Below, one piece after another: positions 13,588-34,914 of a stretch of 64,000 nucleotides of DNA. This stretch comes from Lasiosphaeria ovina (taxonomy: Eukaryota > Ascomycota > Sordariomycetes > Sordariales > Lasiosphaeriaceae): positions 62,001 to 126,000 of the forward strand of contig JAULSN010000014.1 of the NCBI GenBank assembly GCA_033439765.1. The letters run 5' to 3'. Below the pieces are notes generated by a model, which did not search any database, had not been told where the DNA came from, and was given only the letters and a program-made list of their open reading frames with translations. Every line of letters starts with the position of its first letter. The stretch's first letter is position 1. A program made the position numbers and the translations under genes.

Positions 13588-13599
13588 GGTTCCCGAGCT

Positions 13600-14450: not shown

Positions 14451-14479
14451 AAGCTAACCTGACCATCTCTGGGGCCGTT

Positions 14480-16544: not shown

Positions 16545-16735
16545 AAACTTGGTCTCTCATCATAGTGTCCAAACTTGTTCTCTCATCATGTCCAAACTTG
16601 TTCTCTCATCATGTCCAAACTTGTTCTCTCATCATAGTGTCCAAACCTGTTCTCTCATCATGTCCAAACTTGTTCTCTCATCATAGTGTCCAAACTTGTT
16701 CTCTCATCATAGTGTCCAAACTTGTTCTCCTTGCA
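16545..16735. repeat. Minisatellite, 21-26 bp unit (TGTCCAAACTTGTTCTCTCA)
   Basis: Eight copies of TCCAAACTTGTTCTCTCATC, alternately with or without ATAGTG, form a short array. Flanking sequence to 16800 is C-rich and has no gene. Confidence 0.9.
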
Positions 16736-16800
16736 CCATCATCACTTTGTGCACACCACTCTCTCACTCGAGCATCATCACTATTACCCCCCCCCCCCAC

Positions 16801-17850
16801 TCACGGCCAGCCCTGCAAGTCACGCACCCACGCCCACCGCCCGCTGTCGTCGGCCGCCGCCCGCCCCCGACCCTGCCACTCCATCTTCCTCCACTTGGGC
16901 CCCTCGAGCTTGGCCGCCACCCACGTCCCGTGCTCGCGCCCCGCGAACACGGGCCGGTCGGGCTCGCCGCCGCCGCGCCCGCGCAGGATCAGCACCCCCG
17001 CCTCGTCCTCGGCCTCGCCGCCCGGCATGGCCCGCGCCGTGCACGGCCCGCTCAGCGGCGGCGGCCGCGGCACGTAGCACCCGCACCCGCCGCACGTCAC
17101 GTAGCCCGCCCGCGCGTGCACGCGCCGGCACAGGCACACCCACACCGGCCCCATCCGCGCGGCGCCCCCCCGCCCGCGCCCCCTGTCCGCCTGCAGCTCC
17201 ACCACGTCGCCCGGCCCGTAGAAGCCCGCCCGCACCCCGCACCCTATGCAGAACCGCCGCATCCCCCACGTCGCCGCCATGCGCAGAGACGTCGGCCCCC
17301 CCGCCGGCCCCCGCCGCGCCGCCGCCGCCTCCAGAGCCCCCGGCCGCTTGGACGTCGGCGGCAGCGGCGCCCCCGGGTCGGCGTGCGCCGGCCGCTCCGC
17401 CGGCGCTGCCACGCGGTGCAGCACCTGCTCAAAGTGCTGCGGGCCCTTGATGGTCCAGCAGTGGTGGCACGCAAAGTGCAGCGGCTTCTTGTCCCACCAG
17501 TACACGTCCGGGTCCCGGTCCGGGCCCGGGTCCGCGTCCGCGTCCGGGTCCGGGTCGTCCGGGTCCGGGTCCGGGTCCTTGTTTCTCCTGTCCTTCTTCT
17601 TCCGCCTCTCCCGCCACGCAGCGAGGTGCTCCTCGTGCATCGCGGGCCGGTACCGCCGGTACTGCCGCTCGGCCTGCGTGAGCCCCGCCGACCGCCACGC
17701 CGCCGGCGCCCAGAACGGGTCCACGTGCCGCTTGGTCCACCGGCTGGCCGCCGCCAGGTTGTGCAGGTCCAGGTACCCGAGGAAGAAGCCGACGCGCCGG
17801 AGTATGTCGAGCGGGAGCGCCGTGAGCGGGAAGAAGGGCGGTGGTGGTAG
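16801..17850 (-). CDS. F-box protein with Cys-rich (zinc-binding-like) C-terminus, 5' end uncertain
   Basis: The minus-strand frame ends at a TGA at 16801. It begins with an F-box: LTALPLDILRRVGFFLGYLD…LHNLAAASRW, fitting LP.(D/E)IL..V..FL…L..L…S. After a basic/acidic linker with DPDPDP repeats come four Cys clusters: HFACHHCW, RFCIGCGVRAGFYG, VWVCLCRRVH and YVTCGGCGCYVP, suggesting zinc binding. F-box proteins link substrates to Skp1-cullin E3 ligases; the Cys-rich part would be the substrate-binding region. No ATG is visible in this frame: upstream it runs through a (TGG)n tract encoding poly-Pro into the neighbouring YQPGLEEY repeats, so the N-terminus is probably in another frame or exon. 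Confidence 0.65.
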   Translation of the reverse strand, partial: LPPPPFFPLTALPLDILRRVGFFLGYLDLHNLAAASRWTKRHVDPFWAPAAWRSAGLTQAERQYRRYRPAMHEEHLAAWRERRKKKDRRNKDPDPDPDDPDPDADADPGPDRDPDVYWWDKKPLHFACHHCWTIKGPQHFEQVLHRVAAPAERPAHADPGAPLPPTSKRPGALEAAAARRGPAGGPTSLRMAATWGMRRFCIGCGVRAGFYGPGDVVELQADRGRGRGGAARMGPVWVCLCRRVHARAGYVTCGGCGCYVPRPPPLSGPCTARAMPGGEAEDEAGVLILRGRGGGEPDRPVFAGREHGTWVAAKLEGPKWRKMEWQGRGRAAADDSGRWAWVRDLQGWP

Positions 17851-18065
17851 TGGTGGTGGTGGTAATGGTGGTGGTGGTGGTGGTGGTAATGGTAATGGTG
17901 GTGGTAATGGTGGTGGTGGTAATGGTGGTGGTGGTGGTAATGGTGGTGGTGGTGGTGGTGGTGGTGGCTGATGCTGGTAATACTCCTCAAACCCTGGCGG
18001 TAATGGTGGTGGTGGTGGTGGTCGTAATGGTGGTGGTGGTGGTGGTGGTGGCTGATGCTGGTACT
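17842..18065. repeat. (TGG)n-rich tract
   Basis: About 220 bp of TGG/TAA-type trinucleotides with two short unique islands (CTGATGCTGGTA…). On the minus strand it reads poly-Pro in the F-box frame and poly-His in another. Confidence 0.9.
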
Positions 18066-18769
18066 CTAACCTGGCTGGTAATACTCCTCTAACCCTGGCT
18101 GGTAATACTCCTCAAGGCATGGCTGGTAGTACTCCCCGAGGCCTGGCTGGTAATACTCCTCGGGGCGTAGCCAGTCGTACTCCTCTAACCCTGGCTGGTA
18201 GTACTCCTCGGGGCGTGGCTGACAATCCTCCTCCTCCTCCTCCTCCTCCTCCTCCTCCTCCTCCTCCTCCTCAGGCCTCCAATCCCACTCCGCCCGGGGG
18301 TGCTTGCGGGGGCGGCCCCGGGGGCGTTTTGGCTTTGGCTCGCGATGCTTGCGGGGGCGGCCCCAGGGGCGTAGTCCAGGAAGTCCTGGTCCCGGTCCTG
18401 GTCCCGGTCCTGGTCCCGGTCCTGGCTGCGGTCCCGGTTCTGGCTGCGGCGCGTCCGTGGGCGGTGGCGGCGGTCGTCGTGGTGGCCGCCGATACCACTT
18501 TATTCTTCGCCTGACCGACACGCGGCCGCCGGAGCGGAGCGCCGACATGGCCGGCCACGGCGGCTCTTTGGCGTCCATGGGCCCTAGCCGGGCCGACCAC
18601 AGCGCCTGCCGCGGCAAGTCCAGGTCGAGCGTCGACGTCATGGCCGACCACGGCCCCAAGTCTTGTTCGTCGACTTCCGCTTCTCCTGGTCGCCGAAGAA
18701 TCCACCCCTGGGCGCGGAGGGCCGCGAGGGTGGGCGGCGTCTGCACCGTCGCATCTGTGGACACGGTGG

Positions 18770-18818
<49 letters not shown>

Positions 18819-19913
18819 GGGAGACGACGTGGTGGACATGGCTGGCCATGGTTGTTGTGGCAGATCCATCGCTCCTTGATTCAGCGGCGGTTGTTCTGGC
18901 AGATCCGTCCAGGACGTGTACATGGGTGCTGGCGGTTGCTGTGGCAGATCCGTCGCTCCTTGATTCAGCGGCGGCTGTTGTGGCAGATCCATCGCTCCTT
19001 GATTCAGCGGCGGCTGTTGTGGCAGATCCATCGAGGGCGTGGACATGGCTGGCGGCTGTTCTGGCACATCTGTCCAGGACGTGTACATGGGTGCTGGCGG
19101 CTGCTGTGGCAGATCCGTCGCTCCTTGATCGGCTGGCCACGGCGCTTGTAGTTGTCCTGGCAGATGCGTCCAGGACGTGGACATGGGTGCTGGCGGTTGT
19201 TGTTGTGGCAGATCCGTCGCTCCTTGATCCAGCGGCGGTTGTTCTGGCAGATGCGTCCAGGACGTGGACATGGCTAGCGGTTGTTGTAGCAGATACAGAT
19301 CCGTCCAGGACGTGGACGTGGACATGGGTGCTAGCAGTTGCTGTTGTAGCGAGTCCATCTCGAGCGTCGACATCACGGCCGGCCACGGCCCTTGTTCCAG
19401 ATCCATCTCCATCCCGAGCGGCGACATCACGGCCGGCCACGGCGCTTGTTCCAGACCCACCGCCTGCGGGAAGAGGGCGACATGGCCGCCGCCAAGGGCT
19501 TGTCCCTGAGGCACAAAGGGTGACTGGAAAGCCGGGGGAAGTGTCCGAGGCACAGAGCGTGACTGGAAAGCCGGGGCAAGTGTCCGAGGCACAGAGGGTG
19601 ACTGGAAAGCCGGGGCAAGTGTCCGAGGCACAGAGGGTGACGGGAAAGCCGGGGGAAGTGTCCGAGGCACAGAGGGTGACTGGAAAGCCGGGGGAAGTGT
19701 CCGAGGCACAGAGCGTGACTGGAAAGCCGGGGCAAGTGTCCGAGGCACAGAGCGTGACTGGAAAGCCGGGGCAGAGCGTGACTGGAAAGCCGGGGCAACT
19801 GTCCGAGGCACAGAAGGTGACTGGCGAGCCCGGGCAAGTCTCGGAGCCACAGAGGGTGGCTGGCGAGCCGGGGCAAGCGTGCCGGAAGACTCGTGTCGCG
19901 TTGGAAAGGCCAT
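18066..19913 (-). CDS. Gln/Pro-rich repetitive protein with AT-hook-like motifs
   Basis: 615 residues from ATG 19913 (MAFPTRHESSGTLAP); the frame is open to 20555, but that extension runs through a GC element and (GGCAC)n. Order: ~8 copies of a 13-residue unit FQSRSVPRTLAPA (39 bp, 19510-19830); repeats of PAMSTSWTDLP and QPPLNQGATDLPQ (18840-19330); poly-Gln (18774-18815); then two AT-hook-like motifs, WGRPRKH and RGRPRKHPR (about 18300-18370), poly-Glu, and EEYYQPGL repeats ending at a stop at 18066. AT-hooks bind the minor groove of AT-rich DNA. The EEYYQ repeat theme continues in the next frame towards the F-box segment, so the two may be one gene broken by a repeat-length change or joined by an intron. 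Confidence 0.5.
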
Positions 19914-20089
19914 GTTGGAAACCGTTTCAGACAAGAGGGGGAGCAGGAGAAGGTGTTGCAGACGTCGTGTTGGAGAGCATGGAGGGCGGCGGCTTGTATA
20001 CGACGGGAGCCTTGGCGACATTGCGGGGAAGGAGAAGAGCGTCCGAGACACTGTCCCGCACGTTAGCGTGTCGTTGACGCCTCCCTTGC

Positions 20090-21375
20090 ACCACCCCCCT
20101 GCACTGTGGAGGAGCTCCCCCAAGTGCTGTGTTGCCTGGCATGGTCGCTGTGTTGCCTCCGGCGGCCCTCCGGGGGCGCCTGCGGCGGGCTGCTCGCTGC
20201 GCTCGAAAGGGCTGGCACGGCACGGCACGGCACGGCACGGCACGGCACGGCACGGCACGCGTGGCGACGAGCTGGGGCGGGCGGCACGGCACGGGTGGCG
20301 ACAGGCTCGGACGGGCGGCGCTGCACGGCGGGCACGGGGGCCCGAGACGCGTCGTGGCCACGGCAGCACGGTTTCAGGGGCAGAGTGGCACAATGCAACG
20401 CAATCTATTATTAGTGGACCGCCAGTCCCAGTGCAAATCTGCTTCTTGTTCTCCTCGAGCACCGCATCTCCCAGCGTACCAGTCCAAAGCAAAAGCAAAA
20501 GCAAAAGCCCACACCACCGCCCAAAACCCACACCACCACCACCAGGGGAGCGCACCGTGTCGACTCAGGGGCTTTGTTGTTGTCCGTGTGTCGTAGTCCT
20601 TGTGTCGACGGCCGTGTCCTGGCGAGACGCAGCGCTGCGGCCCCCTTTCGAGCTTGCGAGCAGCCCGCCGCAGGCGCCCCCGGAGGGCCGCCGGAGGCAA
20701 CACAGCGACCATGCCAGGCAACACAGCGACCGTGCCAGGCAGCACAGCGACCATGCCCGCAGCGACCGTGCCCAGCAGCGACCATGCCCGCAGCGGCAGT
20801 GATCGGCCCCCCCCCCGGCTCCAAAACGTGCTCGCACTGTACGCAACGCGCAAATCCGCAAATCCTCCGCACTGTCCCCGACGCACACGATCGCAAGGGC
20901 GGCCAGCACCGGCTGGCCATGGGCGCCGCCGCCCCTCACACCGACCCCTCACCAGCTGAGCCCGCGACTGTGCTGCCGTCTCCCATTGGCCCGCCGTCGC
21001 CCTCGCCCTCGCCGTCCGACTCCCCCGCCGCGGCCACGCCAATGGCTGCGTCGAAGTGGCTGCTCTCGTAGCGGGCTTCCAGCCCCTCGCCCATGGCCGC
21101 GTCCAGTTGAGCTCCCAGCCCCTCCTCGTCCATGGTGGCGTCAAAGTGCTGGCTCTCTAAGCGAGCGCCCAGTCCCTCGCCCATGGTGGCGTCAGAGTGT
21201 TTGCTCGCTGAGTGAGCGCCCAGCATGGTGGCGTCAGAGTGTTGGCTCTCCAGTTGAGCTCCCAGCCCCCCCTCTCCCATGGTGGCGTCAGAGTGTTTGC
21301 TCTCTAAGCGAGCTCCCAGCCCCTCCTCTCCCATGGCTGCGTCCAGTTGAGCTCCCAGCCCCTCCTCTCCCATGG
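20090..21375. other. Intergenic repeats: GC elements, (CGGCA)n, ~57-60 bp array
   Basis: No gene is supported. It contains GC elements at 20153-20206 (minus) and 20646-20700 (plus), a CGGCA pentanucleotide run at 20213-20256, short ACACAGCGACCATGCCAGGC repeats (20699-20790), and seven or eight copies of a unit CCCATGGTGGCGTCAGAGTG…GAGCTCCCAGCCCCTCCTCT (21090-21380). The last array abuts the 3' end of the alpha-box gene, whose C-terminal sequence is related to it. Confidence 0.75.
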
Positions 21376-21380
21376 TGGCG

Positions 21381-24300
21381 TCAGACTGTTTTGTACTCCA
21401 AGCGAGGTCGCAGCCCCCCTCCCATTGTCTCTACCCACACCAGCCGTGGCGGCAGCGCGTGGGACGGTGCAGGTGCAGGAGGGGGGGGGTGGCCGGTCGT
21501 GGTCGACTTGTCGTCGCCGAAAGGGGCAACCACCGCGCGGTGGGCCGCCGGACCATCGAGTCCGCGCTCGTGCTGCTGGCTGCCAGACGCTGGAAAGTGC
21601 CCTCCACTGCGCGGGGGAGCGAGCGGGCCAGAGACATGCTTTCCGCCCTCGGTTATTAGCGTAGGGGCTGGCAGCAGAGCCACTGCTGCACGCGCCGTCT
21701 CGACCGGCGCCCAGGCATAGGCCTGAGGCGGTCGTGATGGCTGCTGCTGGGGGTCGCTCTGCGAGTCGCTCCGGCCAATGTACATGAGCCCGCACCGCGG
21801 GTCCGACAGCGCTGCCACGATGGGCGCCGGCGCCGTCACGGGCAGCCCGCCGCGCATGCACTCCTGGAAGAGCCCCAGGCCGCTCAGCGGCTGCTGCTGC
21901 GTCGCGGGCCTGCGGATGAGTGCCCCCAGCGTCGCCAGGGGGTGTGGCTGCTGCGAGGGGGGATTGTGTGGCTGCTCCGAGGGGGGATTGTGTGGCTGCT
22001 CCGAGGGGGGATTGTGTGGCTGCTCCGAGGGGGGATTGTGTGGCTGCTCCGAGGGGGGATTGTGTGGCTGCTCCGAGGGGGGATGCGCCATGGTCACTCC
22101 AGAGGCATTGTGTGGCTGCTGCTGCGAGGGGGGGTGCGCCATGGTCACTCCTGAGGCATTGTGTGGCTGCTGCTGCGAGGCGGCATTGTGTGGCGGCTGC
22201 TGCGAGGGGGGGTGCGCCATGGTCACTCCGGAGGCATTGTGTGGCTGCTGCTGCGAGGGGGGGTGCCCCATGGTCACTCCAGAGGCATTGTGTGCCTGCT
22301 GCTGCGAGGGGGGGTGCCCCATGGTCACTCCAGAGGCATTGTGTGCCTGCTGCTGCGAGGGGGGGTGCCCCATGGTCACTCCAGAGGCATCGTGTGCCTG
22401 CTGCTGCGAGGGGGGGTGCCCCATGGTCACTCCAGAGGCATCGTGTGGCTGCTGCTGCGAGGGGGGATGCGCCATGGTCACTCCGGAGGCATTGTTTCTC
22501 GGCTGGCCATCTCCTGCGGGTGCCGTCACAAGTGGTGGCCCATCATCTCCTGCGGGTGCCGTCACAAGTCGTCTCTTGCGGGCGCGCTCTTCTTGCTGCT
22601 GGTCGTGCTCCTCTTGCTGCTGGTCGTGCTTCCTCTTTCCGCGCATCGCCTCTCCCCATTGCGGTGGCGCCATGTCGCGCTGCTGTTGCTGCCGATGGTG
22701 TCCCTCGATTCTTGTCGCCAGATGCGGTATCGTCGCTGTGGAGCTGTTGCCGTAGCTGAGACGCAACATAAACCGCTGCAAGGTGAGGGACAGTGCGCGT
22801 GCCCTGGCGAATGCTTTCTCGCGGTCGCGCTCCTCTTGCTCATCGGACTTCTCTTGCTCATCGGGCTCCTCTTGCTCATCGAGCCCCCTCTCGCCTTTGC
22901 TTTCCAGTGCCATTGCCGTTGCCGACTGCGCTATCGAGTCACTGTGTCTCAGCTGCTGCAAGGGATGGGCTAGTGCGGGTGCCGTGACAAATGGTTTCTC
23001 GCGGTCGGACCCCTCTTGCTGCTGATCGCCCTCTTGCTGCTCACCGCCCTCTTGCTGCTGATCGCCCTCTTGCTGCTGATCGCCCTCTTGCTGCTCACCG
23101 CCCTCTTGCTGCTGATCGCCCTCTTGCTGCTGATCGCCCTCTTGCTGCTGATCGCCGTCTTGCTGCTGATCGCCGTCTTGCTGCTGATCGTTCTCTTGCT
23201 GCCGACCGAGCCCCTCTTGCTGCTGATCGAGCCCCCTCTCGCCTTCGCTTCCCATTGCCATTGCCATTGCCATTGCCAATTGCGCTACCGAGTTATCGTG
23301 TCTCAGCTGCGGGCGTGGACGGGCGCCTGCGGGTGCCGTCACGAATGCTTTCTCGCCGTCGTACTGCTGTTGGTGCTGATCATGCCCCCTCACTCCCACT
23401 GCCAATTGCGCCACCGTCACTGTTAGCTCGTTGTTTCTCGCCAATTGCACCACCGTCGCTGTTGACTCGCTGTTTCTCGCCAATTGCGCCACCGTCGCTG
23501 TTAGCTCGTTGTTTCTCGCCAATTGCGTCACCGTCGCTGTTAGCTCGCTGTTTCTCGCCAATTGTGCCACCGTCGCTGTTGACTCGTTGTCTCTCGCCAA
23601 TTGCGCCACCGTCGCTGTTGGCTCGTTGGCTCTCGCGCTATGCGTGGTCAGCTGTGATGGACGACCGCCTGCGGGTGCCGTCACGAACCTTTCGCTTCGG
23701 TCGCGCTTTCTCTGCTGCTGGTGGCTGCCTGCCTCTGCCTCTGCCATTGCGCTTGCCATTACCAATGGTGGCGTCGGCGCTATCGACTTGTTGGCTCCAT
23801 CGCCGTGCAGCTCCGGCTCCAGCTGACCGCCTGCGGGCGCCGTCGCAAACAGGTTTTTTTCGCGTCGATCGCGCTCCCTCTGCTGCTGATGGCTGCCTGC
23901 CACACTGCTGGCCACACCGCTGGCCACACTGTTGGCAATTGCAATTGCAATTGCGATCGCCAACGGTGGCGTCGACGCTATCGAGTCATTGTCTCTCTCG
24001 CCGTGCAGCTCCAGCTGAGAGGGCCGAGCGTCTGCGGGTGCCGTCACAATCCTTTCGCTTCGGTCGCGCTCCCTCTGTTGCTGGTCGCTGGCCACACTGT
24101 TGGCAATTGCAATTGCAATTGCGATTGCCAACGGTGGCGTCGACGCTATCGAGTCATTGTCTCTCTCGCCGTGCAGCTCCAGCTGAGAGGGCCGAGCGTC
24201 TGCGGGTGCCGTCACAATCCTTTCGCTTCGGTCGCGCTCCCTCTGTTGCTGGTCGCTGCCCCGCACCTCTGTCGCAGTTTCCATTACCAATGGTGGCGTC

Positions 24301-26060
24301 GGCGCTGTCGAGCTGTTGGCTCCCTCGCTGTGCGGCTCCACCTGCCACGGCCGAGCGGCCGCCACAGACCTTTCGCTTCGGTCGCGCTCCTCCCTCTGCT
24401 GCTGATGGCTGCCTGCCGCTGCCTCTGCCATTGCGATTGCCATTGCAATTGCCAAGGGTGGCGTCGGCGCTATCGACCGTCTGTCTCGGTCGCTCAGCTG
24501 TGGTGGCCGAGCGTCTGCGGGCCCCGTCACCAGCATCCTCTGCTGCTGATGGCTGCCTGCCTCTGCCTCTGCCATTGCGATTGCCATTACCAATGGTGGC
24601 GTCGGCGCTATCGACCGTCTGTCTCGGTCGCTCAGCTGTGGTGGCCGAGCGTCTGCGGGCCCCGTCACCAGCATCCTCTGCTGCTGATGGCTGCCTGCCT
24701 CTGCCTCTGCCATTGCGATTGCCATTACCAATGGTGGCGTCGGCGCTATCGACCGTCTGTCTCGGTCGCTCAGCTGTGGTGGCCGAGCGTCTGCGGGCCC
24801 CGTCACCAGCAACCTCGCGCCGAGGTCGCGCTCCTGTCGCTGCTGGCCGTCCGCGACCCCTGCCACTGGCCGCGTCGTCGCTATTAGGTTGCCGTCTCTG
24901 TCGCATCGCTGCTGGCCCGGTCGCCATGGGTCGCATCGCTGCTGGCCCGGTCGCCATGGGTCGAATCGCTGCTGGCCCGGTCGCCATGGGTCGTATCGCT
25001 GCTGCCCCAGTCGCTGCTGCCCCCCCAGCCGCCGCGATGGGCGAGCTCCTGCGGGTGCCGGAGATCGGTCACGCTGCCGCCCCACCCACCCCTGCTGTGA
25101 TTGGCCAGCGACGCCCTGCCGCTGCTGTGATTGGCCAGCGACCGCCTCGGCGTGCGGGGTCGCCCCCATCGCACCGAGATTGCTCTGGGGGGTCGCACTG
25201 CTCTGGGAGAGGAAAAGCTGCCCCGCCGCCCTCGCAACACTCTCGTCTGCGTGCGGGGTCGCCCCCATCACACCGAGATTGCTCTGGTGGGTCGCACTGC
25301 TCTGGGAGAGGAAAAGCTGCCCCGCCGCCCTCGCAACACTCTCGTCTGCGACCGTGCCCCGCGCGACTGCGTCCGTGCGTCGCACGAGCCCGTCCTCTGC
25401 GTGCAGGCCGTCGCCGAGGGTTAGGGTCTGCGCCGCCGCTGCCCGCGAGGTCGCCGCCGCCAGGTCGCCGAGGGTTAGGGTCTGCGCCGCCGCTGCTGCT
25501 GCCGCGCCCGCCAGAAAACTCTCGTCTGCGTCGTCCGTGCGTCGCACCCCCCCAACAACCCTAACCCCCCCATCCCCCCCCCCGTCGCACGCGCGGACGA
25601 GCGACCAGCCGTGGCCAGGGCCAAAACCAGAACCAGGCGGCGAGCCCGCCCGCACCAGCGACCACCCGTGGGCCGCCAGGTACTGGTCGCGCGCCGCCAG
25701 CCCCAGCGGCACCGCCGCCCACCCCAGCCACGCCTGCAGCGTCACGCCGTCGGCCGCCAGGAACCCGCGGATCGCAGAGTACACGGCGCACGCAAAGTCC
25801 CACTCGGCGTGGTGGCCGTCGGCCCGCCACAGCGCCGTCACGAACCGCGACCGCTCCTTTTGCGGCACCGCCGCGAATATCCCAGAGTAGTATGCTGCGT
25901 CGCGCGCGCGCGCGCGCCCGTCAGTCTTGTTTGCGCCCGACGCGAGAGAGAGAGACGGCCCGCACTTACCGCGGAACCCCATGAACCCGTTCACCTTCTT
26001 CTTGGCCGCCTGGCCGTGGCCGTGGCCGACCGCCCGCGCCGTGTCCGACGCCGCCGCCAT
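21381..26060 (-). CDS. MAT1-1-1: MAT1-1-1 alpha-box mating-type protein with giant repeat extension
   Basis: ATG at 26060. Residues ~20-115 form a complete MAT alpha domain: AKKKVNGFMGFR, YYSGIFAAVPQKERSRFVTA, LW, EWDFACAVYSAIRGFL, VTLQAWLGWAAVPLGLAARD and YLAAHGW. The alpha domain is a DNA-binding regulator that specifies one mating identity and represses or activates pheromone and receptor genes. The conserved alpha-box intron is present (25895-25969, GTAAGT…ACTGAC…CGCAG, joining FMGFR-A-YYSG). It is 75 nt with no stop. The spliced protein is ~1,534 residues, whereas family members are usually ~350-450. The excess is in-phase Gln/Arg/Pro repeats: GQQRxDPWRP x4, three ~46-residue SDRDRRSIAPTPP units, LARNNELTATVAQ x7, GDQQQEG x~13, HNASGVTMAHPPSQQQP x~9, NPPSEQPH x~5. 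A non-repetitive end follows (LGLFQECMRGGLPVTAPAP…). The alpha-box call is firm; whether the full-length product exists is not known. Confidence 0.85.
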   Translation of the reverse strand: MAAASDTARAVGHGHGQAAKKKVNGFMGFRGKCGPSLSLASGANKTDGRARARDAAYYSGIFAAVPQKERSRFVTALWRADGHHAEWDFACAVYSAIRGFLAADGVTLQAWLGWAAVPLGLAARDQYLAAHGWSLVRAGSPPGSGFGPGHGWSLVRACDGGGDGGVRVVGGVRRTDDADESFLAGAAAAAAAQTLTLGDLAAATSRAAAAQTLTLGDGLHAEDGLVRRTDAVARGTVADESVARAAGQLFLSQSSATHQSNLGVMGATPHADESVARAAGQLFLSQSSATPQSNLGAMGATPHAEAVAGQSQQRQGVAGQSQQGWVGRQRDRSPAPAGARPSRRLGGQQRLGQQRYDPWRPGQQRFDPWRPGQQRCDPWRPGQQRCDRDGNLIATTRPVAGVADGQQRQERDLGARLLVTGPADARPPQLSDRDRRSIAPTPPLVMAIAMAEAEAGSHQQQRMLVTGPADARPPQLSDRDRRSIAPTPPLVMAIAMAEAEAGSHQQQRMLVTGPADARPPQLSDRDRRSIAPTPPLAIAMAIAMAEAAAGSHQQQREERDRSERSVAAARPWQVEPHSEGANSSTAPTPPLVMETATEVRGSDQQQRERDRSERIVTAPADARPSQLELHGERDNDSIASTPPLAIAIAIAIANSVASDQQQRERDRSERIVTAPADARPSQLELHGERDNDSIASTPPLAIAIAIAIANSVASGVASSVAGSHQQQRERDRREKNLFATAPAGGQLEPELHGDGANKSIAPTPPLVMASAMAEAEAGSHQQQRKRDRSERFVTAPAGGRPSQLTTHSARANEPTATVAQLARDNESTATVAQLARNSELTATVTQLARNNELTATVAQLARNSESTATVVQLARNNELTVTVAQLAVGVRGHDQHQQQYDGEKAFVTAPAGARPRPQLRHDNSVAQLAMAMAMAMGSEGERGLDQQQEGLGRQQENDQQQDGDQQQDGDQQQEGDQQQEGDQQQEGGEQQEGDQQQEGDQQQEGGEQQEGDQQQEGSDREKPFVTAPALAHPLQQLRHSDSIAQSATAMALESKGERGLDEQEEPDEQEKSDEQEERDREKAFARARALSLTLQRFMLRLSYGNSSTATIPHLATRIEGHHRQQQQRDMAPPQWGEAMRGKRKHDQQQEEHDQQQEERARKRRLVTAPAGDDGPPLVTAPAGDGQPRNNASGVTMAHPPSQQQPHDASGVTMGHPPSQQQAHDASGVTMGHPPSQQQAHNASGVTMGHPPSQQQAHNASGVTMGHPPSQQQPHNASGVTMAHPPSQQPPHNAASQQQPHNASGVTMAHPPSQQQPHNASGVTMAHPPSEQPHNPPSEQPHNPPSEQPHNPPSEQPHNPPSEQPHNPPSQQPHPLATLGALIRRPATQQQPLSGLGLFQECMRGGLPVTAPAPIVAALSDPRCGLMYIGRSDSQSDPQQQPSRPPQAYAWAPVETARAAVALLPAPTLITEGGKHVSGPLAPPRSGGHFPASGSQQHERGLDGPAAHRAVVAPFGDDKSTTTGHPPPPAPAPSHALPPRLVWVETMGGGLRPRLEYKTV
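21960..25350. repeat. Coding minisatellites inside MAT1-1-1
   Basis: Distinct arrays in order: 24 bp x~6 (21955-22085), 51 bp x~9 (22085-22490), 18 bp x~13 (22990-23215), 39 bp x7 (23405-23640), ~138 bp x3 (24400-24815), 30 bp x4 (24900-25010), ~93 bp x2 (25140-25350). The unit lengths I measured are multiples of three, so the reading frame is kept throughout. Confidence 0.85.
25895..25969 (-). other. Alpha-box intron, 75 nt, frame-preserving
   Basis: Donor GTAAGT, branch-like ACTGAC, acceptor ACGCAG. It lies at the position where MAT1-1-1 genes carry a conserved intron. It contains a (GC)n run and no in-frame stop, so retention would add 25 residues between FMGFR and YYSG. Confidence 0.85.
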
Positions 26061-28220
26061 GGTCGCGCCCGCACAGTGAGCCGCAACTGCTGCCGTGGTT
26101 GATCAGCGAGGAGGGAGGAGCCTTGATGGCCGACGAGGAGTGGGAAGGGCCCCTCTACATGCCCTGGTGCAGGGCACTCCATCCGAAAAAGCGTGCAATC
26201 CATTGAGACAGGTGGCCAAGCCAATAACGGGTTCCTCAACGTATCCTCTCTTCCGTAGTAGACCAAACGGGACGATGAGACCTGGCACTGAATGATTATT
26301 ATATATAGACTCCCAGATGGTGAGGTTGGTGTTGGGGGTCGTGGATGGACGGGAGACGGCCGTTGGGGTTCATGGCCGTGTACTTGGGCTTTTTGACGTC
26401 GGAAAACTATTACCAGCGCATTGAAAGAAATTAATTTATGTTTGGGCAATAATTCATTTATAATTCCAATCCCTCAAATATTACCAACAAGGAAGGCAGC
26501 CCTCCTGTTAGTTGTTGGCGTGTGTGAACAGCTTCGACGGATAACTACAGGCTAAATAAGCAAGCCCAAAAAGTCTCTGAGGGTTTGGATTCGATGGAGT
26601 TTGTAGATATCTATATAGTCTCACGTTATAGGTCGCCAAATCTGACCGACGTTTAACTTATTGAAGATCCAAAATACATCAGCGGTACTAAAGTCAGTAG
26701 GTATCGATCGATTTAATTATAATAAACTTGCAGTTAACTAATATTGGTAATGTTCCATTGAATGGAAAGAAGTCAGAGCAAAAATTGAAACCACACCACA
26801 AACCACAGCGACGCTGGTAGAATGCAAATGATCGAGCCGAGTATGGTGATGGACGAGCTTGAAGACTTCAAGCAATAGAAGCCGCGAAGGATCGCACGTC
26901 ATTGAACTTATTTCCAAGGGAGCCCAAACGCACTTGTTGAGAGCCTAGAGTAAATTGTTAAGACTTTACTGAACAGTTATCACGAATTTCGTCTTAGAAT
27001 ATATCTCGAGAGTTTTTTGCTTCATTATCTCGGGGATACGCGCTGCTGGGTGAATTAAGGATTGCGGATGACGTTTCTGGCAACTTATTCCCAATCAATC
27101 CAAATATGGTGGCTCCGGGGTGTTGGTCATGGGCCCGACGTCTTATCTGAGCCGCAACCAGTTTCCGGAAGTCGAGACATCTCTCCCAACTTAAGGTCAC
27201 GACCCGCAATATTGGAGATAGGAGAATTAACTCTCTTGGATATGTGTAGTTTACGAGAAGGGATCACTCGCCTTCTACTTTCTCCGCCAACTTTCCCAAG
27301 ACTTTTAAGATATAGTGGCTGCCAGAAAGAATGCCGGTTTCATTGTGCTCGAGGTCCAAAGGAATGAGAAATGTATTGGATATTCTGATGAAGTGGCGGA
27401 CACGATTGCACAAATAACCTCCTTGGAGATACTACGGAAGGGAAAGTCTTTTTGTTGCGGCTTCAAGAATACCTCCGCCACGTTCGTGATCTGCTAGAAG
27501 CGACGCTCAAGCTCGTTATATTCTCCCTAATACCCGAAGAGCTGGGGGGGAAAAAAGACGCAGCACAGGTATTCACCAGTCTATGTCTCTTCAATGTTCA
27601 GAAGAGATGCTCGTCGTAGCTAGGCGATTCCTCGTTTACAATTGCTATATAGCCATAGCGGTTTGACGAGATCTTTCAGTTCCCGCCATAATTAAACGGG
27701 GGGAGCGAATGAATCCCAGACGCAAAAAGCATGCCTGGAAAATATTGGCATTATCCGCAGGGTACAGTTTAAACCCCCAGATTGGCCAGGTAAATTATTT
27801 CATCCCATGACTACTTCGTAAATTACGAAGTTTGCGTATTACACCCCGAGGGGAGGTTCTTTTGTTGTGGGTCTCAATAGGAACAAAGAATTAATTCCCC
27901 ACCCCGCTTTTTACTTCCCCTTCCTTCTTCTCTCTTCTACCTTCCACCTTTCTTCTTCCACTTTTCACCGCACACACATTCCAAAATTCTCTTCACCGCA
28001 CACACATTCCAAAATTCTCCTCACCTTCCTTAACCCCGTTCGCGAACGCATCCACTGCAAAAGAAATCGCGATCATCAACACTTTTGCAGCTTGGAAGTG
28101 CACCAACCGGTGTCTGCAAAAGCATTCTTCCCTCTCATCTGTTCATTTCACCCACCGTCCACCTCTTTCCACTCTGCGGAATTGAAATCTCGCGTGCACA
28201 CCAATTGCGACAAAGTCACC
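26061..28220. promoter_or_regulatory. Divergent intergenic region between the two MAT genes
   Basis: About 2.16 kb. 26061-26400 is GC-balanced. 26400-27860 is AT-rich with no convincing ORF. 27890-28040 is pyrimidine-rich (CCCCTTCCTTCTTCTCTC), with a 27 bp repeat CACACACATTCCAAAATTCT x2, as in fungal promoters and leaders just upstream of MAT1-2-1. I looked for MAT1-1-2 or MAT1-1-3 coding sequence and found none. The AT-rich part may be RIP-mutated remains of something once there. Confidence 0.6.
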
Positions 28221-29312
28221 ATGGCAAGCAATTTTCCATCCGCCTCTGTGGAGATTTGGAACAAGTCGTGCGACAAGCTTGTACCAAAGAACAAGTTCAA
28301 GACTCTCTCCTTTTCCAAGGAGCAGTACAATGAAATGACCGACGAGGTCCGCGCTGGCCTGACCCACCAGATGCAGTGAGTTGAACTATCAGATCACATT
28401 CCCAAATGCTTCTGCTGACTCGTGCTAGACTTTTTTCGCATGACAAGGCAATCTGGGCTCGCGATGGCGGAAAAGCCCAAAACTGGGTCTTGGGACCCTT
28501 CAAGAAGATGGTGAACCATCTCATCGAGTACAATGGGATCACCATCTTTGACCCCTACAAACGATTCAACGTGACCACTCTCTACGACAAGATCCCACGC
28601 CCCCCTAATGCGTTCATCTTGTACCGCAAGGATCGTCACAAGGAGTTGAAGAACGCCAACCCGGCTCTCAAAAATAATGAGATCTGTGAGTACCATCTTG
28701 AGGGGGATAATTTAGACGGCCGATTTGTTAATTTTTTAATTTCTAGCTACCATTGTTGGCGCTATGTGGCGTCGTGAGACTGAGGAGATCCGCACCGAGT
28801 ACTTTTTGAAGGCACAGGAATGCAAGAACCAGCTTCTGAAGTACTATCCTCAGTACAAGTACACTCCTCGCCGCTCAGCGGACATTCGTCGTCGTAGCCG
28901 AGATGGCAAGCACAAGACCCTTTACAACGGCGTCATGTGCAACACCGAGGATCTTCTCTACCTCGATATAATCGACCTCACAGTCGCCGACCCTGGCATC
29001 GGCCCCAATGATGGCCCAAGAATCGGCATTCGGAACGACATCCTGAATGGTCCCAACGTCACCTGGGCCAATGGCCGAGGCGGAGAGCCATGGGAGCTAC
29101 CCGAGGAACGGTTCGAACCGCTCTTCGCTCAGCTAACCCTGCCGGACTTGACTGCTCTTGCTATGCCGCCCATTCCAACGACGGATGAGATTTCCCTGGA
29201 CAACCCGCTGATCCCGTACCATGTTGACAACCCGCTGCTCCCGATGATCATGGCCGTGACCCCGGCCCCGAAGATCCTCCGGATCGATCCGAAGGATCTC
29301 CCGATTTTCTGA
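28221..29312 (+). CDS. MAT1-2-1: MAT1-2-1 HMG-box mating-type protein
   Basis: Three exons: 28221-28375, 28429-28685, 28747-29312; introns of 53 nt (GTGAGT…TGCTGAC…GCTAG) and 61 nt (GTGAGT…TTCTAG). Product 325 residues. The MATA-type HMG box spans res ~125-200: PRPPNAFILYRKDRHKELKN, NNEIS, IVGAMWRRE, YPQYKYTPRR. The second intron splits the Ser codon of NNEIS, the conserved MAT1-2-1 intron position, which separates it from MAT1-1-3. The HMG box bends DNA and specifies the other mating identity. The N-terminus (MASNFPSASVEIWNKSCDKL) and the Pro-rich C-terminus fit the family, as does the length. It is transcribed away from MAT1-1-1. All frames join cleanly, so it looks functional. Confidence 0.95.
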
Positions 29313-29439
29313 AAGGTACCTCCCCTCGTCTCTATCGTCTCAGGACGGCTGGCTAACCATGGTCTCCTGCAGACCGAGAGCGGCAATGAATGATCAGCGA
29401 GGTCAGTGGTGGACGGACGGTGCGACAATGTGGGGGGCT

Positions 29440-30100
29440 TTTGGGGCACGATTGCGTTGGGGCACGATTGCTATTGCGTTTGGGGTGGATGGTTTCTGGC
29501 ATGTGGTTTTGCGGTCTGGAGTCCGGGGGGTTTCTATCAATCCTTCGGGCGGTTCCGGGCCACGACTGCGCTGGGCATAATTGGGTGTGGCTTTGGGCCA
29601 CGGTTGCGCTGGGACACGATTGCGTTTGCTTCTGGGGCTCATGGTATTTTGGCGAAGGCGCGAACAGATCCGGGACATTGGGTCCCCTGCGGTGTTAGCT
29701 GTGTCTCGACATGGGAATACGCGGCGTGGGGACTGGCTTCTGGTGCTTCACAGTCTTTTGGCGGCGAAGGCGCGAACAGATCCGGGACATTGGGTCCCCT
29801 GCGGTGTTAGCTGTGTCTCGACACGGGAATACGCGGCGTGGGGACTGGCTTCTGGTGCTTCACAGTTTTTTGGCGGCGAAGGCGCGAACAGATCCGGGAC
29901 ATTGGGTCCCCTGCGGTGTTAGCTGTGTCTCGACACGGGAATACGCGGCGTGGGGACTGGCTTCTGGTGCTTCACAGTTTTTTGGCGGCGAAGGCGCGAA
30001 CAGATCCGGGACATTGGGTCCCCTACGGTGTTAGCTGTGTCTCGACATGGGAATACGCGACGTGGGGACTGGCTTCTGGTGCTTCATAGTCTTATTGCCG
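29440..30100. repeat. 112 bp tandem array (4 copies) and shorter GCACGATTGCG repeats
   Basis: Units start with GCGAAGGCGCGAACAGATCC at 29652, 29764, 29876 and 29988 (period 112). Each contains GGACATTGGGTCCCCTGCGG. Before it, 29450-29640 holds degenerate GGGCACGATTGCG copies. It lies immediately downstream of MAT1-2-1. Confidence 0.9.
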
Positions 30101-30249
30101 TACGAAGCCAAATAATAAGATAGATTTCCCCAAGGGTACTTGTCTGCGTGGTGACTTTAGCTTGTGAGATTCTACTCCAGGCTGGGCGGCAGGCTTACTT
30201 CACGAGATGTCGGCTCGGCGATGTGAGCAGCAACGAGCGGCAGGCGTGC

Positions 30250-30600
30250 GTTGCTGGGAGGCCACAGCACTGATATGTGGCTCTGGGGATTCTCAGAGCG
30301 GCCTTCATGGTTTCATTCTGCAGGGAGGCCACTACACTAATATCTAGGTCTGGGGATTCTCAGAGCGGCCTTCATGGTTTCATTCTGCAGGGAGGCCACA
30401 GCACTGATATGTGGCTCTGGGGATTCTCAGAGCGGCCTTCATGGTTTCATTCTGCAGGGAGGCCACTGCACTGATATCTGGGTCTGGGGATTCTCAGAGC
30501 GGCCTTCATGGTTTCATTCTGCAGGGAGGCCACTGCACTGATATCTGGGTCTGGGGATTCTCAGAGCGGCCACTCGTGGTTTCATTCTGCAGCGGTGGGC
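30250..30600. repeat. 67 bp tandem array, 5 copies
   Basis: GGGGATTCTCAGAGCGG recurs at 30285, 30352, 30419, 30486 and 30553 (period 67). Confidence 0.95.
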
Positions 30601-31770
30601 TTTTCGGTTCTAGGAGCAGGGCTGCTTATCGGCTTTTCGGTTCTAGGAGCAGCTTCTAGGAGCAGGGCTGCTTATCACCATGACCTTATCAGCTTGATCA
30701 CCACCACCTTGATCACCACCACCTTCATCACCACACCTTCATGCCCACCACCTTCATCACCACACCTTCATCACCACCACCTTCAACCACCTTCATCACC
30801 ACCACCTTCACCTCTCTCGGCCTTCATTGCTGGGAGAGAACTCGAGCCACTGCACATGTGCGATAACTTCCTGCTTTCCTTCTGCCACACGGGCCTTCTC
30901 GGCTTCTAGAGAGGCCTGGCTCGCACATGTCGGCGCGCGTTGCTGCAAGGGAAGGTGGCGCCACTGCACCCACACCTGGCTCACTGCACATGTGCCGATA
31001 ACCTTTCCTCGGCTACTCAAGCTTTCTTTCTGCCGCGCCGCTTCGTCACCTTCATCAGCCATTGCACTGACATCTGCCGATAACCTTTCGTCGGCTCTCT
31101 TTCTTTCTTTCTGCCGCGCCGCTTCGTCACCTTCATCAGCCATTGCACTGACATCTGCCGATAACCTTTCGCCGGCTACTCTTTCTTTTTTTCTGGCGCG
31201 CGGCGTCTTCACATTCATCAGCCACTGCACTGCATCTGCCGATACTTGCTCGGCTACTCTTTCTTTCTTGCTGGGGCGCTGCCGATAACCTTTTTGCTGG
31301 GCTGCTCGTGACCTGGGCTGGTCGTGCTTTATATCTGGGGCGGCGGCCGTCTCGGGTTCTGGCTTCTGCAGCCGTCCTTCTTCACCCTTGTTCATCCTTG
31401 TTCATCAGACCTCTGCAGCCGTCCTTGTTCATCAGACCTCTGCAGCCGTCCTTGTTCATCAGACCTCTGCAGCCGTCCTTGTTCATCAGACCTCGCCGTG
31501 CAAACCGATACGGACAAACATCGCAACCAGGCTCGCAACACGGACAAACATCGCAACCTGGCTCGCCGCTCAATTCGTCTCTCGCGCTCGCCTACTCTCT
31601 CGCTCAACGCCGACACCCGCACGCATTGTAAGCCTGGCTCGCTGCTTATCTGGCCATTCTCGGCGGCGCGCCCTCGTGCTTTCTCTCGCCGACGCTGACT
31701 CTTTGGGCTTCTAGGAGCCGCGTTCCTGTTCCTGTTCGTGTTCCTGTTCCTGTTCCTGTTCCTTGGGCAC
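30600..31770. repeat. Mixed short tandem arrays, no gene
   Basis: GGTTCTAGGAGCAGGGCTGC x2 (30600-30670); ATCACCACCACCTTC-type repeats (30690-30815); two to four ~85 bp units with GATAACCTTTC…GCCGCGCCGCTTCGTCACC (31000-31270); a 27 bp unit TTGTTCATCAGACCTCTGCA x4 (31385-31495); GTTCCT hexamers (31720-31765). No ORF has plausible composition. Confidence 0.8.
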
Positions 31771-32230
31771 GTCTCTGCGCCGAAACCGACGCCGCCGCAC
31801 ATTGTAAGCCTCCTCGTTCTTGTCTGGCGATTCCCAGAGGCGCTTATCTGGCGGTTCCCTCTTCCTCAATTCCTTTCTCGCCCACTCATCCTTTCCTTCT
31901 GCAACGCTGACTCTCGGGGCTCCAGGAGCCGCGTTCCTTCTGCACATCTCGGCGCCCGTTGCTTGCGCTGCCCCGACACGGCCTCACATTGTAAGCCTGC
32001 CTCTCTGCTCGTTTGCTGCTCTTCTTGGCTCGCGCGTTCCTTGTTCACTTCTCGCCGGCACCGACACCGACACCGACACACGTCCAAAGCCTGCCTCGTC
32101 GAGCACCTGCTGACATTTCGGCCGCAGCGAGCCGACTGCTTCTTTTTTGCCTCGCTGCACCCCGCCACGACCTACCTCGCTGAGCCTCTCACGTCTCCCC
32201 GCCCCAAGCTCCGTCGACGCCCACTGCATC

Positions 32231-33280
32231 ATGTCTGCCGTACGCATCATGGAGTGGCTCAACACCACCACCGACTTGGCCACCGTTGACTTCGACGCCT
32301 TCGGGCTCTGGACGCCGCCGCCCGACCCCGCGCCCGAGGACTCGTCGGCCACCATAAGCGAGCCCGAGGGCTCTGACGACGCCATGAGCAAGACAATGTC
32401 GCTCGCGCCCGAGGGTTCTGAAGACACCATGAGCAAGACAATGTCGCTCGCGCCCGAGGGTTCTGAAGACACCATGAGCAAGACAATGTCGCTCGCGCCC
32501 GAGGGTTCTGAGCATGTCTGGAGCGCGGCGGCCACGGCCACGATCTCGAGTGAGGCCTCGGACGCTACAATGACTTTTCCCGAATTTGACGACGAGGGCT
32601 CTGACTCTGAGATCCTTGTTATACGATTTTACATTGACTCGTCCGACGACGACATGGCGCAGTCAGACGCAACCATGGAAGCACCAGTGGGTACGGCCGC
32701 AGCCAAGCGGCCGACACTAAAGCGCAGCCGTTCAGAGGAGAGCGCAGAGTCAGCCCGGCCGCCGGTAAAGCGCTGGCGTGCAACAATAGTGCGTGACGAT
32801 GACTCAGAGGCCAGTATGGCAGATTCTGAGGCAGACGGAGTCCCGGCCGAGGGCCGCAAAAAAATATCGAAAGCCGCAATGACGCAGGCCCAGAAGTCGC
32901 TGCACAAACGGCAGAAGCAGCTCCGGCGCCGACGCGCCACCATGGCGTCGCTGGTGAAAAAGCGGGTGAAGTTGGACAAGAAGTCCGCTAAACTCGACAA
33001 GGCTGTGGCGAAGATTGCCAAGAAAGCAGCGAACATGAGAAAGAAGGCAGCCAAGAAGAAGCAGGCCGAGCTTGACATGGAGCAGGCCAAGCTCAACAAG
33101 GCAGTTACCAAGATCGCGAAGAAGACGGCTAACATGGCTAAGAGAGCGGCTCAGGAGAAACAGGCCGAGCTAGAGATGCAAGAGGCCATTGAGCACTTCC
33201 AGGCCGTGCTGGACCGGGACGCGATGGAGATGGACGAGGAGCTGGCGGCCTTGTTCAACCAGATGAACATGAGTTCGTAG
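32231..33280 (+). CDS. Disordered protein: acidic N-terminus, Lys-rich coiled-coil C-terminus
   Basis: 349 residues from ATG 32231 (MSAVRIMEWLNTTT). The N-terminal third is acidic and carries an 18-residue unit, SEDTMSKTMSLAPEG-like, about three times (54 bp). The middle has Ser/Asp/Glu blocks and a bipartite basic stretch (KRPTLKRSRSEE, RPPVKRWR) like a nuclear localisation signal. Residues ~220-330 form a Lys/Ala/Gln-rich coiled coil with a duplicated KLDKAVAKIAKKAANMRKKA segment. No enzymatic motif. Likely a nuclear structural or chromatin-associated protein by composition only. Single exon with no internal stop; upstream frame is open to 32147 without an ATG. Confidence 0.65.
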   Translation: MSAVRIMEWLNTTTDLATVDFDAFGLWTPPPDPAPEDSSATISEPEGSDDAMSKTMSLAPEGSEDTMSKTMSLAPEGSEDTMSKTMSLAPEGSEHVWSAAATATISSEASDATMTFPEFDDEGSDSEILVIRFYIDSSDDDMAQSDATMEAPVGTAAAKRPTLKRSRSEESAESARPPVKRWRATIVRDDDSEASMADSEADGVPAEGRKKISKAAMTQAQKSLHKRQKQLRRRRATMASLVKKRVKLDKKSAKLDKAVAKIAKKAANMRKKAAKKKQAELDMEQAKLNKAVTKIAKKTANMAKRAAQEKQAELEMQEAIEHFQAVLDRDAMEMDEELAALFNQMNMSS

Positions 33281-33296
33281 GCGATGCTTTGTTACC

Positions 33297-34030
33297 CCCC
33301 CCCCCCCCATCATCAGTTGTTCGTTGCTGAGGCGCAGACGCGCGATGATTTGTTACCCCCTAATATCACCAGTCTCCATCCATCCGTCTTTGGGCGGACA
33401 GACAGACGACTGAGGCACAGAAACGCGATGATTTATTACCCTTCCTAAACACCAGTCTCCATCCATCCGTCTTTGGGCGGACAGACAGACGACTGAGGCA
33501 CAGAAACGCGATGATTTATTACCCTTCCTAAACACCAGTCTCCATCCATCCGTCTTTGGGCGGACAGACAGACGACTGAGGCGCGGAAACGCGATGATTT
33601 ATTACCCTTCCTAAACACCAGTCTCCATCCGTCCGTCTTATTAGGCAGACAGACAGACGACTGAGGCACAGAAACGCGATGATTTATTACCCTTCCTAAA
33701 CACCAGTCTCCATCCGTCCGTCTTATTAGGCGGGACAGACAGACGACTGAGGCACAGACTCGCCATGATTTGTTACCCCCTAATATCACCAGTCTCCATC
33801 CGTCCGTCTTATCAGGCAGACAGACAGACGACTGAGGCACAGACTCGCCATGATTTATTACCCCCTAACACCTAATATCACCAGTCTCCATCCGTCCGTC
33901 TTATTAGGCAGACAGACAGACGACTGAGGCACAGACTCGCGATGATTTATTACCCCCTAGCACCTAATATCACCAGTCTCCATCCACGTCTTTGGGCGGG
34001 TAGACGGACGGCTGAGGCACAGACACGCGA
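33297..34030. repeat. 83-93 bp tandem array, 8 copies
   Basis: CCAGTCTCCATCCATCCGTC recurs at about 33369, 33452, 33535, 33618, 33701, 33789, 33879 and 33972. Each unit contains GACAGACAGACGACTGAGGC and GATGATTTATTACCC. It follows the preceding gene's stop directly. Confidence 0.95.
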
Positions 34031-34079
34031 TAGTTTAGTTTTCCAGATAGATAGAGGGATAGAGTCTAGACAGATTGAC

Positions 34080-34822: not shown

Positions 34823-34914
34823 CGAGCGCAGCGAGCAGCCCGCCGCTTTGTGTCTGGAGGGCCGCCGGAGGCAAAGCGAAGGAAAACAGAACCTCTCTAC
34901 TCCCGACCGAGACG

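Follow-up and report, generated by a model that had tools for sequence, protein, structure and literature searches.

Lasiosphaeria ovina is a wood-dwelling fungus of the Sordariales. Mating-type (MAT) genes rank with the most thoroughly studied regulators in fungi; MAT1-1-1 and MAT1-2-1 normally mark the two opposite mating types. Linked MAT pairs are recorded for 17 of 26 Naviculisporaceae strains in the portion of PMC12734299 consulted here (section 3.3). The Sordaria macrospora-type linked homothallic locus, as outlined in the same portion, likewise has MAT1-1-1 close to MAT1-2-1 in one genome. It includes MAT1-1-2, MAT1-1-3 and APN2/SLA2 flanks, whereas the L. ovina searches turned up neither MAT1-1-2 nor MAT1-1-3 and placed SLA2 and a probable APN2 on other contigs. 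According to that portion, three Naviculisporaceae strains, together with Chaetomiaceae as cited there, also depart from a single APN2-MAT-SLA2 locus; their idiomorphs stand apart with one of them bordered by APN2/SLA2, whereas those of L. ovina stand together without either. The sections of PMC10298223 used here describe Chrysoporthe zambiensis and C. syzygiicola as likewise carrying both genes in one locus from which MAT1-1-3 is absent, and the flanking genes reported as unlinked in C. zambiensis give at least partial precedent for loosened flanks. The Chrysoporthe loci of these sections differ in having MAT1-1-2, for which L. ovina gave no match, and a MAT1-1-1 of ordinary size (387 amino acids in C. 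zambiensis), and C. zambiensis is reported to have APN2 on the contig of its MAT pair. MAT1-1-1 proteins from Podospora, Cercophora, Neurospora and their relatives (P0134-P0144) share with L. ovina the alpha box, an intron in it and the C-terminal motif. In them, however, only a short segment separates the motif from the box, and the whole protein measures 291-350 amino acids, against a 1,246-residue repeat linker in a predicted protein of 1,534 residues.

A divergent MAT pair inside a minisatellite island

The window, the whole stretch of 64,000 nucleotides analyzed, contains a divergent MAT pair on L. ovina contig C6, with MAT1-1-1 (alpha box) on the minus strand and MAT1-2-1 (HMG box) on the plus strand. 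The start codons lie at 26060 (-) and 28221 (+), a spacing of 2.16 kb, and both boxes hold GT-AG introns. The window has no N, and the pair sits on one gapless stretch. The features are as follows.

21381..26060, minus strand: MAT1-1-1 gene, with exon 1 at 26060-25970, intron at 25969-25895 and exon 2 at 25894-21381 including the stop (PF04769, relatives)
25650..26012, minus strand: intron-split alpha box (tblastn of relatives, e.g. P0134 at 26012-25650, E 2.9e-32)
21894..25631, minus strand: MAT1-1-1 repeat linker, 1,246 amino acids, residues 119-1364 (stop counts, composition, array periods)
21771..21893, minus strand: MAT1-1-1 C-terminal motif QPxNGLGLF..C..GLPV..P..I..LSDP (tblastn, 11 of 11 relatives)
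26061..28220, no strand: shared divergent intergenic region (200-base GC profile, genome self-comparison)
26308..26409, no strand: 102-bp copied stretch, 100% identical to C32:360085-360186, with unrelated flanks
28221..29312, plus strand: MAT1-2-1 gene, 325 amino acids, with exons at 28221-28375, 28429-28685 and 28747-29312
1..58000, no strand: minisatellite island enclosing the MAT pair (34% tandem repeats, period 9 or more)

Pfam, tblastn and the exon coordinates bear out the central claim of the sequence-only reading, namely divergent alpha-box and HMG-box genes 2.16 kb apart. That reading had also given each gene the family's conserved intron; the GT-AG introns are there, and we take their positions in the boxes to be the conserved ones of the alpha-box and HMG-box families. 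MAT1-2-1 has two GT-AG introns, of 53 and 61 nt, and is matched in tblastn by all 12 relatives from the MAT1-2-1 search. The hits of that search include annotated mating-type proteins, with Cercophora scortea as the best at 41% across 46% of the query. Its HMG box is split by an intron after NNEI, a position presumably typical of the MAT1-2-1 family. In a tree of 16 HMG boxes (P0010, L007, L008 and L011 left out), where 1 of 12 inner branches is well supported, the gene joins C. scortea P0002 at weak support (81/77).

Tandem repeats make up 33.8% of the ~58-kb island, against 0.6-8.6% in six other sets, and the island is sharply bounded. The minisatellite neighbors described by the sequence-only reading are confirmed, with repeats on both sides of the pair, as is its statement that SLA2 and APN2 flanks are missing from the window (genome-wide Pfam searches). 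Short dispersed repeats in both orientations also flank the pair, for example at 13.4, 20.1, 34.8, 41.8 and 63.1 kb. Comparing the intergenic region with each of its flanks inside the window gave 0 and 0 repeat matches at E 1e-4, so nothing brackets MAT1-2-1 alone. Ten long ORFs in the window gave no Pfam family, and neither did the three within the window among 10 further ORFs scanned; the MKT1_N, PHD and transposase domains and a sub-cut-off DEAD match found in these further ORFs are all outside it. A promoter and terminator scan returned counts near the shuffled mean and, its patterns being bacterial, was disregarded. Telomere repeat arrays were absent from the 1.5-kb ends of C6 and of C9, the contig with a second MAT1-1-1 copy (below).

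On the MAT1-1-1 side of the intergenic region, GC drops over roughly 600 bases, from 0.69 to 0.34. Positions 26100-28200 are single-copy in the genome apart from the one 102-bp stretch. The candidacy of this stretch as the unique scar of a gene-joining event is weakened, because numerous segments of the DNA on the far side of MAT1-2-1, to its right, likewise recur on other contigs (of 116 candidates, 40 were scored, giving at least 59 genome matches including itself). To the eye, the C32 site resembles a glutathione-S-transferase gene with a frameshift; two short pieces of it scanned with Pfam gave no match.

A giant MAT1-1-1 with a repeat-built linker

The alpha box in the ORF at 21381-26060 (-) matches PF04769 with an E of 2.4e-33 (115.5 bits, cut-off 28.1). 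All 11 MAT1-1-1 relatives match it in tblastn (E 4.8e-29 to 1.2e-32). Identity to the Podospora Fertilization Minus Regulator reaches 60%. Once the 75-nt intron in the alpha box is removed, the gene forms a single open frame of 1,534 amino acids. This lies outside the 291-350 amino acids of the relatives (P0134-P0144, n = 11, from a search with a length filter of about 273-868); as length is a size trait, the gene is a variant that is still a member of the family. Every one of the 11 relatives recovers the C-terminal motif in frame, with E values of 1.1e-5 to 2.7e-10 and each match covering 21798-21893; the motif starts near residue 1366. This corrects the sequence-only reading: the motif near 21.80-21.89 kb makes the gene one 1,534-residue frame, well beyond the ordinary size of an alpha-box gene. 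Box and motif are ~1,250 residues apart, compared with ~20-30 normally.

The linker has no stops in the ORF frame, against 5, 13, 14, 18 and 47 in the five remaining ones and a mononucleotide-shuffle mean of 29.5. It is built of minisatellites and rich in A, Q, P, R, G and S. Repeat arrays with a period divisible by three account for 11 of 12 inside the ORF versus 47 of 92 outside (Fisher p 0.011), and in-frame repeats seem to have enlarged MAT1-1-1 about five-fold. Codon changes between repeat copies are 53 nonsynonymous versus 7 synonymous (excluding successive copies with differences at over a quarter of their bases), so the amino acids of the linker are not conserved, and purifying selection on it was not seen in the 10 of 12 arrays compared. 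The alpha box keeps 41 of the 46 family-invariant columns, and the branch of the gene in the tree is long (0.51 versus a median of 0.07).

MAT copies, flanks and receptors across the genome

The 32 contigs of the assembly contain one intact MAT1-1-1 and a single MAT1-2-1, both on C6. The genome search for other MAT copies proposed by the sequence-only reading yielded no further intact one and a second, broken MAT1-1-1 on C9. This copy is without the long linker and keeps 40 of 46 invariant alpha-box columns; with 41 in the C6 gene, conservation does not separate the intact gene from the broken copy, and the idea of strong constraint on the intact alpha box was dropped. Over 30 kb of C9, the surroundings of the two copies share the gene and scattered short matches with no collinear block. 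A possible retroelement beside the C9 copy was read by eye only, and Pfam found nothing in the 294-residue frame scanned. The broken copy, the giant repeat-filled MAT1-1-1 and the bounded island had all been overlooked by the sequence-only reading.

SLA2 occurs at a single place, on C30, and by this gene L. miniovina and Podospora didyma are the nearest species. The probable APN2, drawn from the 4 of 19 nuclease matches that were read (L017-L020), belongs to the exonuclease III family, where its top-scoring model reaches 96.6 bits against a cut-off of 99.05; it has a partial, below-cut-off GRF zinc finger and likely marks the APN2 position on C28. No MAT gene or relic appears beside the probable APN2 (C28:189-229 kb) or SLA2 (C30:383-433 kb) at E 1e-3. 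The proposed check for these genes elsewhere placed SLA2, and probably APN2, on other contigs, and the C6 locus lacks the canonical APN2-MAT-SLA2 flanking. The term "structurally unusual" is too strong: linked pairs are usual in homothallic relatives, and loosened flanks have the at least partial precedent of C. zambiensis. MAT1-1-2 (PF17043) had no match anywhere in the genome in a search run without a positive control, and none of the seven other HMG loci resembles MAT1-1-3 when judged by eye. The pheromone receptors STE2 and STE3 are both present.

A homothallic arrangement and its alternatives

Both genes side by side in one genome point to self-fertility, and the locus is best read as genetically homothallic. 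The homothallic claim of the sequence-only reading stands as far as both genes in one genome go, since they share a gapless stretch and the 32 contigs gave no further intact MAT gene; selfing is what we infer from it. The best explanation, which we hold to be probable with all of its steps taken jointly, is that the L. ovina mating-type locus is in a homothallic arrangement. Both master regulators would be transcribed outward from the shared 2.16-kb region, every nucleus would be able to specify both mating identities, and with both regulators in one genome a single spore could pass through the whole sexual cycle unaided. The locus would have departed from the ancestral APN2-SLA2 neighborhood, with MAT1-1-2 and MAT1-1-3 seemingly lost. 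Replication slippage or unequal exchange in the minisatellite island may also have acted within MAT1-1-1, and retention of frame-keeping repeats would have shifted the C-terminal motif ~1,250 residues from the alpha box. More tentatively, with somewhat less than even confidence, we propose that frame-keeping growth of minisatellites in the MAT-centred island rebuilt MAT1-1-1 into a functional ~1,500-residue protein with a long low-complexity linker separating the DNA-binding box from the C-terminal motif, after an older duplication whose C9 copy, lacking the long linker, was broken by insertions.

A MAT1-1-1 that is vestigial in a heterothallic MAT1-2 strain, no longer conferring MAT1-1 identity and leaving the fungus in need of a partner, seems unlikely to us. 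The drifting linker (53 of 60 changed codons nonsynonymous), the long C6 branch and the 41 versus 40 of 46 invariant columns would agree with such decay, as would the truncated MAT1-1-1 in the Chrysoporthe austroafricana MAT1-2 idiomorph in the sections of PMC10298223 used here. However, 1,534 open codons with a GT-AG intron, a C-terminal motif kept in frame and 11 of 12 array periods divisible by three are unlike a long-dead gene. Assembly errors arise readily in sequence rich in repeats and GC, and genes from two nuclei or haplotypes could have been joined here by the assembly or the culture. The sharp GC step and the C32-identical 102-bp stretch between the genes would fit such a join, as would the dense surrounding repeats, and the consulted portion of PMC12734299 (section 3.3) describes such problems with heterokaryotic strains. 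Yet the window is without N, the intergenic region is single-copy save for the 102 bp, and SLA2 and MAT1-2-1 each occur at one place only, which makes an artefact improbable. Least probable is a switching locus, in which flanking repeats delete or invert one gene and leave some spores self-sterile, as reported for Sclerotinia trifoliorum, where the part of PMC4891775 consulted describes MAT1-2 deletion by direct repeats; short dispersed repeats in both orientations do lie on both sides of the pair, but none is common to the intergenic region and its flanks within the window at E 1e-4.

We found no mating-type account of L. ovina in the literature searched; Hensen et al. 2023, cited in the consulted part of PMC12258605, may describe the locus. 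Nor did we find culture or selfing data for the species (single-ascospore work only on Schizothecium), a report linking MAT1-1-1, the mating-type locus and minisatellites, or a description of a mating regulator shaped like the giant MAT1-1-1. None of the 12 matches of the MAT1-2-1 search (five without an organism name) was near-identical or named Lasiosphaeria, and the same is true of the 11 of the MAT1-1-1 search, where the filter on length would by itself be enough to remove a long protein; the expanded MAT1-1-1 in its repeat island may have escaped annotation.

An open MAT1-1-1 expanded five-fold within a repeat island allows two questions to be put to a single organism: by what route a MAT locus departs from APN2/SLA2 and gains self-fertility, and whether an alpha box must sit close to its C-terminal motif. 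If MAT1-1-1 has been rebuilt into a functional regulator, minisatellites at MAT would provide rapid tuning, through changes in length, of a factor that determines sex.

The MAT pair and its place in the genome

Lasiosphaeria ovina, a wood-inhabiting member of the order Sordariales, has a genome of 51.7 Mb in 32 contigs, with the window at positions 62,001-126,000 of contig C6 (C6:62001-126000). The sequence-only reading had placed complete alpha-box and HMG-box genes together here, and the PF04769 match, the relatives, and the exon structures all agree; the MAT pair is real. The mating-type features are as follows:

Window 26060-21381, minus strand: MAT1-1-1, 1,534 aa after splicing (exon 1, 91 nt; intron, 75 nt, GTAAGT...CAG; exon 2, continuing to the stop)
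Window 28221-29312, plus strand: MAT1-2-1, three exons, 325 aa
C9:196.4-197.2 kb (6445-7172 of the fetched stretch L012), minus strand: second, broken MAT1-1-1

The alpha box of the window gene matches PF04769 with 115.5 bits, and a protein search with it returned 11 proteins, each bearing a mating-type name and the PF04769 domain. A Podospora Fertilization Minus Regulator ranks first, with 60% identity, and the search also gave a Cercophora scortea mat-A1 protein. For MAT1-2-1, 12 proteins were matched, including Colletotrichum proteins named mating-type a-1 and MAT+ fertilization-promoting factor; the top match, with 41% over 46% of the query, is an HMG protein of Cercophora scortea, whose contig is equal in length to the one that carries the mat-A1 protein.

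Genome-wide, a profile search finds the alpha domain only in MAT1-1-1 of the window and in pieces on C9. There are nine HMG matches, two of which are exons of MAT1-2-1 and seven of which are, by eye, different HMG proteins; the MAT1-2-1 protein itself finds elsewhere only two distant matches (41% and 31%). Translated searches (E 1e-3) with the 11 MAT1-1-1 and 12 HMG relatives as queries, run over 114 kb of C6, 30 kb of C9, and the surroundings of APN2 (40 kb) and SLA2 (50 kb), match the window's two MAT genes and the C9 copy, and no others. The wider search and the phylogeny that the sequence-only reading proposed yield one extra, broken MAT1-1-1, no second MAT1-2-1, and trees in which the alpha copies group firmly (99/98) but MAT1-2-1 sits only weakly (81/77) beside the Cercophora protein among 16 HMG boxes. 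PF17043, for MAT1-1-2, has no match in the genome and none in control genomes either; MAT1-1-2 is likely absent from the genome. STE2 and STE3 receptor genes were found, a second STE3 piece being read through one TGA that is presumably an intron.

In Sordariales idiomorphs, APN2 and SLA2 are described as the typical flanks (PMC9949647). Both had been noted as unrecognizable in the window, and SLA2, and probably APN2, are indeed found away from it. SLA2 lies on C30, near 408-411 kb; its frame best matches an L. ovina ANTH-domain protein (98% identity to the unspliced frame), followed among named matches by L. miniovina (96%) and Podospora didyma (91%). A nuclease frame on C28 near 208 kb, chosen from the four of 19 nuclease matches that were read, is the probable APN2: it matches exonuclease III models, the best falling just below the cut-off, and has a partial GRF zinc finger, also below the cut-off, and by eye a PIP-box-like motif.

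An enlarged MAT1-1-1 in a minisatellite island

The 11 MAT1-1-1 relatives are 291-350 aa long and carry a C-terminal motif (QPMNGLGLF..CL..GLPV..P.PII.KLSDP) ~20-30 residues after the alpha box. All 11 detect this motif in the window near 21.80-21.89 kb, in the same frame as the alpha box but >3.7 kb downstream of it. The intervening linker comprises 1,246 residues, with A, Q, P, R, G, and S abundant. Its DNA is free of stops in the ORF frame, whereas the five remaining frames contain 5, 13, 14, 18, and 47, compared to a mean of 29.5 in base-shuffled DNA, a contrast that is overstated because shuffling loses the repeat structure. When non-overlapping tandem arrays with periods of at least 9 are counted, the ORF holds 12, and in 11 of these the period is a multiple of three (p 4.7e-5 in a binomial test against one third); the rest of the window has 47 such arrays among 92, a difference with Fisher p 0.011. 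Where one repeat copy and the next disagree at a codon, the change is nonsynonymous in 53 cases and synonymous in 7. The reading frame of the linker is preserved; its residues are not.

Beside MAT1-1-1, at 16.5-21.4 kb, 9 of 11 arrays also have periods divisible by three. This stretch includes an 832-aa open frame (window 18066-20564, minus strand) that adjoins MAT1-1-1; a Pfam scan assigned it to no family, and it is perhaps a second repeat-built protein.

Measured as the share of sequence in tandem repeats with periods of at least 9, repeats make up 33.8% of window 1-58000, an island enclosing the MAT pair, against 0.6-8.6% elsewhere: 3.9% and 8.6% on C6 either side, 3.5% around APN2, 1.3% around SLA2, 5.2% on C9, and 0.6% in twelve ~3-kb loci, a gene-chosen set biased towards coding sequence. 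The minisatellite neighbors described from sequence are thereby confirmed. Since C6 bears at least one conserved gene, with an MKT1_N domain (C6:132982-133908; L014 6982-7908, in a locus outside the window), it is not merely repeats.

Between MAT1-1-1 and MAT1-2-1, GC drops from 0.69 to 0.34 over about 600 bases, and at this step a 102-bp stretch (window 26308-26409) has an identical counterpart on C32, at a site that resembles, by eye and without Pfam support, a frameshifted GST gene. The stretch and the GC step may be a repair scar where two halves were joined; alternatively, such sharing may be ordinary for the region, as other island stretches share DNA with other contigs.

Several further elements were observed. 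To the right of MAT1-2-1, a stretch of about 1.6 kb (window 34894-36455) is 88% alike to C27:2864401-2866000, a segment common to both contigs. A dispersed, MITE-like repeat of ~55-75 bp occurs at window 13.4, 20.1, 20.6, 34.8, 39.6, 41.8, 47.3, and 63.1 kb; its copies often form inverted pairs with roughly 100 bp between them. C6 has many copies, and some are present on C9 and C32. Transposase-like frames flank the island on both sides, some kilobases off: one in another fetched locus (L033 839-2570) with HTH_psq and DDE_1 domains, and a copy at C6:54429-54902 identified by sequence likeness.

The broken MAT1-1-1 on C9

No exon 1 was found for this copy in the 30 kb of C9 searched, and the sequence just upstream is retroelement-like by eye, without Pfam support. 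Its alpha box carries a ~250-bp insertion inside a short duplication, and the gene is further damaged by a single in-frame stop and by a change of frame within the C-terminal motif. The insertion is probably a dispersed element, as 156 bp of it resembles a stretch near SLA2 (87%). Alpha box and C-terminal motif lie close together, an ordinary spacing like that of the relatives.

The C6 and C9 genes are sisters on long tips (0.51 and 0.49, versus a median of 0.07) and have 75 of 122 aligned columns in common; of the 46 columns that do not vary among the 11 relatives, C6 keeps 41 and C9 keeps 40. These values are best explained by an older duplication and fast evolution in this lineage, with the C9 copy having died rather recently. 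With 41 against 40 columns kept, conservation on this alignment does not identify the C6 gene as the functional copy.

A probable homothallic locus of unusual build

Both regulators in one genome allow both identities to be expressed in one nucleus lineage, described as the usual genetic basis of homothallism (PMC10298223), and the MAT pair is most likely a homothallic locus. We infer the expression and function of MAT1-1-1 and MAT1-2-1, self-fertility, and the process of linker growth as follows: both mating identities would be expressed in one nucleus lineage, with MAT1-1-1 bearing its extended linker; the linker would grow by slippage or unequal exchange within the island, and changes would persist only when multiples of three.

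A homothallic MAT pair alone is a known kind of locus. In Naviculisporaceae, a linked pair flanked by APN2 and SLA2 is described in 17 of 26 strains; in three strains the two idiomorphs lie on different contigs (PMC12734299). The homothallic locus of Chrysoporthe zambiensis lacks MAT1-1-3, and its flanking genes are reported as not linked, although the same account names APN2 on the contig of the MAT locus (PMC10298223). A repeat-enlarged MAT1-1-1 was not met in the literature searched. What is distinctive in L. ovina is an enlarged MAT1-1-1 within a minisatellite island, separated from SLA2 and probably from APN2.
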